From Thelonectria olida (lineage: Eukaryota; Ascomycota; Sordariomycetes; Hypocreales; Nectriaceae), in assembly GCA_020736575.1 (NCBI GenBank), contig JAGPYM010000005.1:558001-622000 (forward strand): a DNA stretch of 64,000 nt, read 5' to 3'. Below are positions 52,689-63,917 of this stretch, piece after piece (positions within the stretch are counted from its first letter, which is position 1; each line of letters opens with the position of its first letter). The notes beneath the pieces were generated by a model that was given only the letters and a program-made list of their open reading frames with translations, was not told where the DNA came from and did not search any database. The position numbers were made by a program, and so were the translations under genes.

Positions 52689-54089
52689 TTAGTACAATGG
52701 CATCGTGCCTTCAGTCTCCTTAAAAGCCTGCTCCAACACCGCCAGTCCCTCCTCGAGCTGAGCCTCCGTAATGGTAATGGGCGGCGCAATTCGGAACGCA
52801 CCTCCAAAGCTGGGATGACTACTCAAGTTTGCCCAAACTCCAAGCTCGTATGCACGATCTCCGATCCTCTTGGCTAGCTCAAGGGCAGGCTTCTTAGAGA
52901 CCCGGTCGCTAACAACCTCGACACCTGCCATCAAGCCTCGTCCGCGGACGTCGCCAATGCAGCCATAGCGGGATTGAAGCTTCTTGAGGCCGTTGTGAAG
53001 AACTTGGCCACATTTGCGAGACTTGGCGACGAGGTCGTCTCGCATCACAATCTCGAGGACTTTGTCTCCGACGGCGGCGGGGAGAGGATCGTTGACATGG
53101 GTGGTGTAGAAGCAGTAGTCTCGCTCGATGCAAACGCGCTCAATCTCCTCGCTAGTAACAACAGCACTCAGAGGTAGGCCGTTGCCGAGAGTCTTTGACA
53201 AGGTGAGGATATCAGGAATGACGTCCTCGTGGTTGATTGCCATGAAGTCGCCGCATCTACCCACGCCCGTCTGAGCCTCATCGACGATGAGGAGCATGCC
53301 TCGTGCTTCGCAGTGCTTCTTCAAGGCCTTGAGATAGCCGGGAGGAAGAACATGCATACCAGCAGAGCTCTGAATGCATTCGACTATGCAGGCTGCCAAA
53401 GATCCGCAGGATTGCATGTCAATCATCCTCCATCCATACTCAAGTTCGGCTTCCCAGTCATATGACCCATCCGCGTTTCGAAATACAGATCGGTAGGCAT
53501 TTGGGGCGGGAAGCATGAGCATACCCGGCATGAGAGGGCCTTGTCCCTTTCGACCGAAATGGTATTGAGCGCCAAGAGCCTGTGCAGTGACGCCATGCCA
53601 GGATGCTCCAAGGCCAACAATCTCAAACTTGCCGGTGTAGACTTTTGCCATCTTGATAGCAGCTTCGTTGCTCTCACCACCGGTAGATAGGAAGAAAGCC
53701 TTTTCTAAACCAGCGGGAAGCGCCTCGCAAAGTCGCTCTCCCAGGGAGATAACGGGGGGAGAAACCATGCCCGAAAACAGATGATCGAGGTCCAAGGCAT
53801 GGTCACTGATAACCTTGACGATTTCGTCATGACCGTGTCCTAGCAAACAAGACATTTGGCCTGATGTCCAATCAAGGACCTTGTGGCCAGAAGCCGTGTA
53901 GACATATAAGCCGCGGGCGCCGGTGATGATGTCCTTGTGGAACTTGGTGCCATAGTTGAGGAGGTATTTTTCAGACTTCTTCTGGTATTCTTCCTGGCTG
54001 ATCCCTTTATATAGAGTTGGTGTTTCCTTTCCCTTGTTCGCAAGCATCGGAGATGAGTTGCTCTCCTCTGTGACTGCTCCGGGTGCCAT
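52689..54089 (-). CDS. Class III aminotransferase, 2,2-dialkylglycine decarboxylase-like
   Basis: PLP enzyme. Bacterial 2,2-dialkylglycine decarboxylase decarboxylates 2-aminoisobutyrate with pyruvate as amino acceptor, giving acetone, CO2 and alanine. One exon, 466 residues from ATG 54089. Markers: DWTSGQMSCLLGHGH (substrate-site Gln region), STGGESNEAAIKMAK (phosphate site), GASWHGVTAQA (ring-stacking Trp), LLIVDEAQTGVGR (pyridine-N Asp about 270), ILTLSKTLGNGLPLSA (PLP Lys about 299) and AFRIAPPITI (carboxylate Arg). These favour the decarboxylase branch over ornithine or GABA aminotransferases. 2-Aminoisobutyrate is a peptaibol residue in some Hypocreales, so the enzyme could serve its catabolism (inference). 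The stop lies 138 nt from the convergent F-box gene's stop; the Zn2Cys6 gene upstream is in the same orientation. Confidence 0.9.
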   Translation of the reverse strand: MAPGAVTEESNSSPMLANKGKETPTLYKGISQEEYQKKSEKYLLNYGTKFHKDIITGARGLYVYTASGHKVLDWTSGQMSCLLGHGHDEIVKVISDHALDLDHLFSGMVSPPVISLGERLCEALPAGLEKAFFLSTGGESNEAAIKMAKVYTGKFEIVGLGASWHGVTAQALGAQYHFGRKGQGPLMPGMLMLPAPNAYRSVFRNADGSYDWEAELEYGWRMIDMQSCGSLAACIVECIQSSAGMHVLPPGYLKALKKHCEARGMLLIVDEAQTGVGRCGDFMAINHEDVIPDILTLSKTLGNGLPLSAVVTSEEIERVCIERDYCFYTTHVNDPLPAAVGDKVLEIVMRDDLVAKSRKCGQVLHNGLKKLQSRYGCIGDVRGRGLMAGVEVVSDRVSKKPALELAKRIGDRAYELGVWANLSSHPSFGGAFRIAPPITITEAQLEEGLAVLEQAFKETEGTMPLY

Positions 54090-54313
54090 GGTCGTGGATG
54101 CTTTCCGTTGGTATCGTGGTGAGTATAATAAAGACGACGGCTTAGCCAAAGCTGTGACAAGGAACCAATCCAGTACGTAAGGAAGGGTTGAAGAGGATGA
54201 TAAGGAACTTTTCTGAGGCGTATTCTGGAGTCTTTATACATCTTCGAAGTATAATGTCACTTGGCCGGTGACGTTTTTCCCGCGGGAACCCACAAGTCTT
54301 ATCTCCTCCACCT

Positions 54314-63773: not shown

Positions 63774-63780
63774 AAAAAAA
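63774..63780 (-). terminator. RNA polymerase III terminator
   Basis: Seven T residues on the minus strand, 6 nt after the last tRNA nucleotide at 63787. A run of four or more T is the Pol III stop signal, so the interrupted tRNA gene retains normal termination. Confidence 0.8.
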
Positions 63781-63786
63781 GACGAT

Positions 63787-63917
63787 TGCGGTTTATGTGG
63801 ATCGAACACATGACCTTCAGATCTTCAGTCTGACGCTCTCTGTCAGTGAAGGTTAGTGATATGCTTCAAATGAGGCATTTGTTTGTTCGAAACGTACCCC
63901 AACTGAGCTAAACCCGC
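63787..63917 (-). tRNA. tRNA-Phe (GAA) with intron-like insert in the D-loop
   Basis: Read on the minus strand, 63917-63898 gives tRNA positions 1-20 (GCGGGTTTAGCTCAGTTGGG) and 63839-63787 gives positions 21-73. Together they make a complete 73-nt tRNA: D stem GCTC/GAGC, anticodon stem TCAGA/TCTGA with loop CTGAAGA (anticodon GAA), five-base variable loop, T stem ATGTG/CACAT with TTCGATC loop, acceptor stem with one G5-A68 mismatch, discriminator A. Between positions 20 and 21 sit 58 extra bases (63897-63840). The usual eukaryotic tRNA intron site (after position 37) is empty. Both internal Pol III promoter boxes are intact (A box TAGCTCAGTTGG, positions 8-19; B box GTTCGATCC) and a T7 terminator follows, so the gene should be transcribed. 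CCA is not encoded, as normal. Confidence 0.9.
63840..63897 (-). other. Spliceosomal-type intron inside the tRNA D-loop
   Basis: 58 nt, starting GTACGTTTCG and ending CACTGACAG. Donor GTACGT is a common donor of protein genes in this window. A perfect fungal branch-point ACTAAC lies at 63857-63852 with its A 13 nt before the acceptor CAG. Removing exactly GT to AG restores the tRNA with no missing or extra base. It lies at tRNA position 20/21, far from the site cut by the tRNA splicing endonuclease. Confidence 0.75.

Follow-up and report, generated by a model that had tools for sequence, protein, structure and literature searches.

Can a spliceosomal intron reside in a tRNA gene and leave that gene in working order? 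This question is raised by a tRNA-Phe(GAA) locus of Thelonectria olida, in the window analysed here (the whole stretch of 64,000 nucleotides), where 58 nt with the splice signals of an mRNA intron separate tRNA positions 20 and 21. The reading that we favour, at a probability of roughly 0.86, is that this tRNA-Phe gene works and belongs to a set of five found in the genome (four for tRNA-Phe and one for tRNA-Pro) with U2-type introns in the D-loop that the spliceosome would remove from Pol III precursors. What we weigh in reaching it are the anatomy of the gene, the exact recurrence of the insert position, the identity of the exons against the divergence of the introns, the Fusarium-like splice signals and the presence, in the same genome, of a U6 gene that is also interrupted. 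The parts of the window gene are as follows.

63787-63917, minus strand: interrupted tRNA-Phe(GAA) gene (sequence, and ARAGORN on the joined exons)
63898-63917, minus strand: exon 1, tRNA-Phe(GAA) positions 1-20, 20 nt, containing the A box (sequence, and ARAGORN on the joined exons)
63899-63910, minus strand: A box (sequence)
63840-63897, minus strand: spliceosomal-type (U2-type) intron at 20/21, 58 nt (sequence; same site in four of seven tRNA-Phe genes)
63892-63897, minus strand: 5' splice site GTACGT (sequence)
63852-63858, minus strand: branch-site motif CACTAAC, probable branch A at 63853 (sequence; compare CTRAY of Fusarium, PMC5677156)
63842-63851, minus strand: CTTCACTGAC, complementary to the exon 2 anticodon arm (present in three of four tRNA-Phe introns, with one A/G difference)
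63840-63842, minus strand: 3' splice site CAG, next base A, as in YAG followed by R (sequence)
63787-63839, minus strand: exon 2, tRNA-Phe positions 21-73, 53 nt, without an intron at 37/38 (sequence)
63824-63826, minus strand: anticodon GAA (within exon 2)
63799-63807, minus strand: B box (within exon 2)
63774-63780, minus strand: T7 run, Pol III terminator (sequence)

Taking out the 58-nt insert restores a 73-nt tRNA, which ARAGORN called tRNA-Phe(gaa) when given the joined exons. The initial annotation had described just this arrangement (a 58-nt insert at 20/21, a GTACGT donor, ACTAAC 13 nt before the CAG end and a 73-nt tRNA-Phe on removal), and we read the same in the sequence, with the probable branch A lying 13 nt upstream of the last intron base. 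The Pol III signals, as signals, are intact (A box, B box and T run) and there is no intron at 37/38; these had been claimed without a strand, and all could be located on the minus strand. Pairing in the stems is 4/4 in the D, 5/5 in the anticodon, 5/5 in the T and 6/7 in the acceptor stem. The acceptor-stem mismatch, G5:A68, has the same letters in all seven tRNA-Phe genes of the genome, interrupted and uninterrupted. ARAGORN by itself did not single out one 3' junction: the two AGs that follow, at +2 and +4 nt, were also accepted in each of the four interrupted tRNA-Phe genes, giving a shorter tRNA-Phe, and only the first AG yielded the length of the uninterrupted genes.

When a 28-base piece of exon 2 was searched for in the 52.5-Mb genome with up to three mismatches allowed, it was found at seven places, all exact. 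Counting the tRNA-Phe genes had been proposed along with the original claim, and the count is seven: three are intact and four carry an insert at exactly 20/21.

C111 (the window gene): interrupted tRNA-Phe, insert of 58 nt
C35: interrupted tRNA-Phe, insert of 53 nt
C79: interrupted tRNA-Phe, insert of 54 nt
C86: interrupted tRNA-Phe, insert of 54 nt
C75 (one gene) and C79 (two genes): uninterrupted tRNA-Phe

Three of these genes form a tandem trio at C79:495886-496343, in which the middle copy is interrupted and the outer two are not. The four inserts begin with GTACGT, GTACGT, GTATGT and GTGAGT, and each has CTAAC and a CAG end. T runs of 6-7 are present at all four genes. A search of the genome with the first 31 bases of the window intron, allowing up to three mismatches, gave a single match.

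Comparison of the four interrupted genes revealed that all 73 of 73 exon bases are identical, and that intron identity is 51-69%, compared to 49-52% for shuffled sequence; identity of the flanks is 47-53% over 100 nt upstream and 45-59% over 60 nt downstream. Such exon identity points to selection on the sequences, and gene conversion among the four copies could be a partial cause. The T-loop letters read TTCGAT in all four interrupted genes and TTCAAT in all three uninterrupted ones, the exon differences between both groups being confined to the T arm. Judged by these letters, the two groups appear to be separate lineages in that part, and the fixed difference counts against free exchange between them there. 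The same letters would serve as a natural mark for telling apart RNA of the two groups.

With three intronless tRNA-Phe genes present, the interrupted ones are not necessarily required by the cell, and the inserted copies might be dead or kept only as docking sites for Pol III while the intronless genes do all the work. Short D- or T-arm insertions in eukaryotic tRNA genes are usually supposed to mark pseudogenes, according to a review (PMC4090602), and a truncated tRNA-Pro relic (described below) lies 10 kb from an intact gene. The initial annotation had itself left open that the copy is dead. We now hold this to be improbable, since four paralogues keep the insert position and 73/73 exon bases while their introns and flanks have diverged mostly to near the shuffled level; GT, CTAAC and AG are kept in 4/4 tRNA-Phe genes as well, and for docking the A and B boxes alone would suffice.

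A screen of the genome for further interrupted tRNA genes used six patterns of an A box plus GTRNGT, which gave 14, 27, 82, 37, 34 and 10 matches and, after overlaps, 195 distinct loci; each was joined in silico from its donor to AGs lying 25-169 nt away, and the products were passed to ARAGORN. Its reach was GTRNGT donors in the D-loop; 154 of the 195 loci were 201-231 nt long, so that any inserts above about 100 nt would be missed there, and three-base spacing before GG was left out for the TAGC and TGGC A boxes. A credible tRNA came from 5/195 loci, namely the four tRNA-Phe genes and one tRNA-Pro(CGG) gene.

C100:958840-959070 (L084), minus strand: tRNA-Pro(CGG) with two inserts (in-silico splicing and ARAGORN)

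Its D-loop insert is 51 nt long (GTAAGT...CTCTAAC...TAG) and sits at 21/22, a position read by eye; the second intron, of 26 nt, is at 37/38, and a T6 run follows the gene. According to the tRNAscan-SE 2.0 paper, eukaryotic tRNA genes have no more than one intron (PMC8450103), and nucleomorph genes are exceptions to that limit (PMC4090602). Put aside as poor calls were L084 as tRNA-Gly (with another acceptor) or, unspliced, as tRNA-His with a 72-nt insert, and L019 as tRNA-SeC; L037 has a B-box-like motif and gave no tRNA after in-silico splicing. A search with 28 bases from the 3' part of tRNA-Pro gave three matches: the intact gene, a truncated relic and a third that was judged by eye to be another tRNA. 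The relic (L204; C100:948895-948922, minus strand) is 5'-truncated and, as read by eye, retains the end of the 37/38 intron together with the last exon and a T6 run. The first report had the interrupted gene right and took it for a single odd gene; four tRNA-Phe genes and one tRNA-Pro gene have been found. ARAGORN (bacterial code setting) and Rfam at the gathering threshold each returned nothing for the whole window, and the 61 tRNA matches of the genome search (63 of 1484 candidates scored) include none of the five genes, so interrupted genes of this kind escape simple annotation.

Elsewhere in the window, at 52689-54149 on the minus strand, lies a class-III aminotransferase gene whose product is 92% identical to a "2,2-dialkylglycine decarboxylase" of Neonectria ditissima. 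Among the best 120 of 8000 matches, the closest are from N. ditissima and N. punicea (92%), followed by Ilyonectria, Mariannaea and Dactylonectria (88-91%). Neonectria, Ilyonectria, Mariannaea, Dactylonectria and Fusarium are all Nectriaceae.

The donors of all five tRNA introns are of the usual fungal GT type (GTACGT twice, GTATGT, GTGAGT and GTAAGT), GTRNGT having been part of the screen that yielded the tRNA-Pro gene and the branch motif not. CTAAC is present 8-10 nt ahead of the final AG in 5/5, the acceptors are CAG in four and TAG in one, a B-box motif is found in every gene, and ARAGORN recognised the joined exons as a tRNA in all five. Introns of four Fusarium species have a median length of 57 nt, a CTRAY branch motif in 91% and YAG followed by R in 94% (PMC5677156); with lengths of 51-58 nt, the tRNA inserts fit Fusarium introns in both size and signals.

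As a control for chance, in-silico splicing was applied to 322 GTRNGT...YAG junctions of 40-89 nt, taken from both strands of 103,604 bases except for the ends of each stretch. ARAGORN called a tRNA spanning the junction in only 4/322, and these four are the interrupted tRNA-Phe genes; a fifth ARAGORN call was an uninterrupted neighbour gene. Scanning the same 103,604 bases for GTRNGT-CTRAC-YAG gave 26 matches (four of them the tRNA-Phe introns) compared to 28 in a reversed control. Intron-like motifs are thus not rare as such, and what carries the case is the position of the inserts, their recurrence and the identity of the exons. Against an assembly artefact or a chance insertion stand the junction count and the fact that the five loci lie on five contigs and differ in their inserts and flanks, and we regard either as very improbable.

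The inserts might instead be non-canonical introns, excised by the Sen endonuclease with tRNA ligase sealing the exons, in the manner of archaea and of some red algae, in which 20/21 is a known site. One of the positions at which archaeal non-canonical introns lie is indeed 20/21 (PMC4090602), and permuted tRNA genes include a junction type at 20/21 (PMC3978253). When 18 other tRNA genes of T. olida were checked by ARAGORN, 13 had an insert, which in 10 started at offset 37-40; ordinary Sen introns thus seem to be present, suggesting that the Sen pathway operates too. The looser half of a bulge-helix-bulge (BHB) motif, with a 4-bp middle helix and at least one flanking helix of at least 3 bp, can be drawn for 4/5 interrupted genes, the C86 gene lacking even this, and the strict BHB was found in 0/5. 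Sen has no need of a GTRNGT donor, of CTAAC 8-10 nt ahead of the closing AG or of a YAG end, and yet each of the five inserts has all three, at D-loop sites (20/21 and 21/22) rather than 37/38. We therefore give cutting by Sen about as little chance as dead or docking copies. As for self-splicing, Rfam gave no group I or group II match at the gathering threshold in the window, and the inserts of all five genes, at 51-58 nt, are too short for such ribozymes.

One U6 snRNA gene was detected in the genome (47 of 2792 candidates scored), and it too is interrupted.

C122:777140-777309 (L058), minus strand: U6 snRNA gene with a 71-nt mRNA-type insert

The insert, directly after AGAGAAGAT, has a GTCAGT donor, GCTAAC and a CACAG end, with a B-box-like GTTCGAACC inside. 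Introns of fungal U6 genes (Schizosaccharomyces and others) resemble the tRNA inserts in being spliceosomal introns of a Pol III small RNA, and differ in that U6 is itself part of the spliceosome, whereas the hosts here are tRNAs of two isotypes. A tRNA host also needs tRNA end processing and, in the one case of tRNA-Pro, Sen. The U6 donor is less typical owing to C at +3, a base found there in 4% of Fusarium introns (PMC5677156). Maturation of fission-yeast U6 includes splicing of an mRNA-type intron, thought to stem from reverse splicing (PMC10484740), and the insert in T. olida U6 would presumably be spliced as well. With such an insert in U6, a spliceosomal-type insert in a Pol III transcript is not foreign to this cell.

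Introns of fungal U3 snoRNA are a second parallel: the host is a small structured RNA, the donors are GTRWGT, the branch sites RCTRAC and the acceptors YAG (PMC5832005); the abstract of that paper terms U3 a Pol III product. There the host is a snoRNA and here the hosts are tRNAs. According to the same paper, of 2017, no small structured RNAs other than U3 and U6 were known to carry an intron often. The tRNA introns of archaea, Cyanidioschyzon and nucleomorphs are similar in lying outside 37/38, including at 20/21, and sometimes in being joined by a second intron (PMC4090602). The inserts described here lack the strict BHB and have spliceosomal signals, whereas for those of the other introns with a known mechanism the splicing endonuclease makes the cuts, usually at a BHB; for the nucleomorph cases, the review states that splicing is not understood (PMC4090602). 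Canonical Sen introns at 37/38 apparently occur in other tRNA genes of this genome and in the same tRNA-Pro gene, and they differ from the D-loop inserts at 20/21 or 21/22, with their GT-AG and branch signals. Among the papers listed by a literature search that took in few subscription papers and did not extend to bioRxiv, none dealt with spliceosomal introns of tRNA genes, an absence that is not proof. Exact-pattern scans of viral and prokaryote contigs gave no match, which, these being non-fungal collections, has no bearing on distribution.

The introns of the C111, C35 and C79 genes are related through their 3' ends (0/1000 shuffles each): ACTAACCTTCACTGRCAG is common to the three, and their interiors are at the shuffled level. 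This sharing could reflect either common descent with constraint or a conversion tract that entered from exon 2. The common block is able to pair with the exon 2 anticodon arm, which it replaces in the predicted folds. The duplex energies were no better than those of shuffles (P 0.37, 0.57, 0.61 and 0.10). In the precursor, the native anticodon arm had a probability of 0.000-0.053, compared to means of 0.33-0.66 with shuffled introns (P 0.045, 0.33, 0.07 and 0.01, values that are not independent, three of the four introns being related). The mature tRNA itself scored only 0.21, so the folding model is weak here and the predicted interference of the intron with the anticodon arm is suggestive only.

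Another resemblance links the remaining tRNA-Phe intron to other Pol III genes. CTAACAAYCTC, a motif chosen after it had been seen, is found at the branch site of the U6, tRNA-Pro and C86 tRNA-Phe introns and, in the sequence searched, at one other distinct place, inside an ORF of the window. Pairwise similarity gave P values of 0.01 (Pro-U6), 0.057 (C86-Pro) and 0.056 (C86-U6), which over 15 pairs are not significant after correction. The introns may have originated by reverse splicing, as the initial annotation proposed. A more speculative extension, which we consider rather doubtful, is that Pol III genes swapped introns, those of U6 or mRNA origin having been reverse-spliced into tRNAs and fixed, that tRNA-Pro matures by the spliceosome and then Sen, and that the introns may keep the anticodon arm open until splicing.

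Returning to the reading that we favour, we infer the following course for transcription, spliceosomal removal, the order of steps and use in translation. Pol III would use the intact A and B boxes to transcribe the interrupted gene as far as the T run, and the spliceosome would recognise GTRNGT, CTAAC and YAG in the uncapped nuclear precursor. A lariat would form and position 20 would be joined to 21 in tRNA-Phe, or 21 to 22 in tRNA-Pro, with end trimming, CCA addition and modification coming next; the 37/38 intron of tRNA-Pro would then be taken out by the Sen endonuclease and ligase. The central proposal of the initial annotation, an mRNA-type intron in a tRNA gene of Pol III, holds on the evidence of the sequence.

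Splicing of tRNA and splicing of mRNA are treated as separate systems. If RNA data confirm the reading given here, tRNA genes would be a new kind of host for mRNA-type introns. Should these introns be spliced as proposed, the spliceosome of T. olida would process tRNA precursors and the supply of tRNA would be tied to spliceosome activity, with one tRNA-Pro requiring both machines. The differing introns and positions would make intron gain testable in short and highly constrained RNAs, and more interrupted tRNA genes of this kind may hide in fungal genomes.
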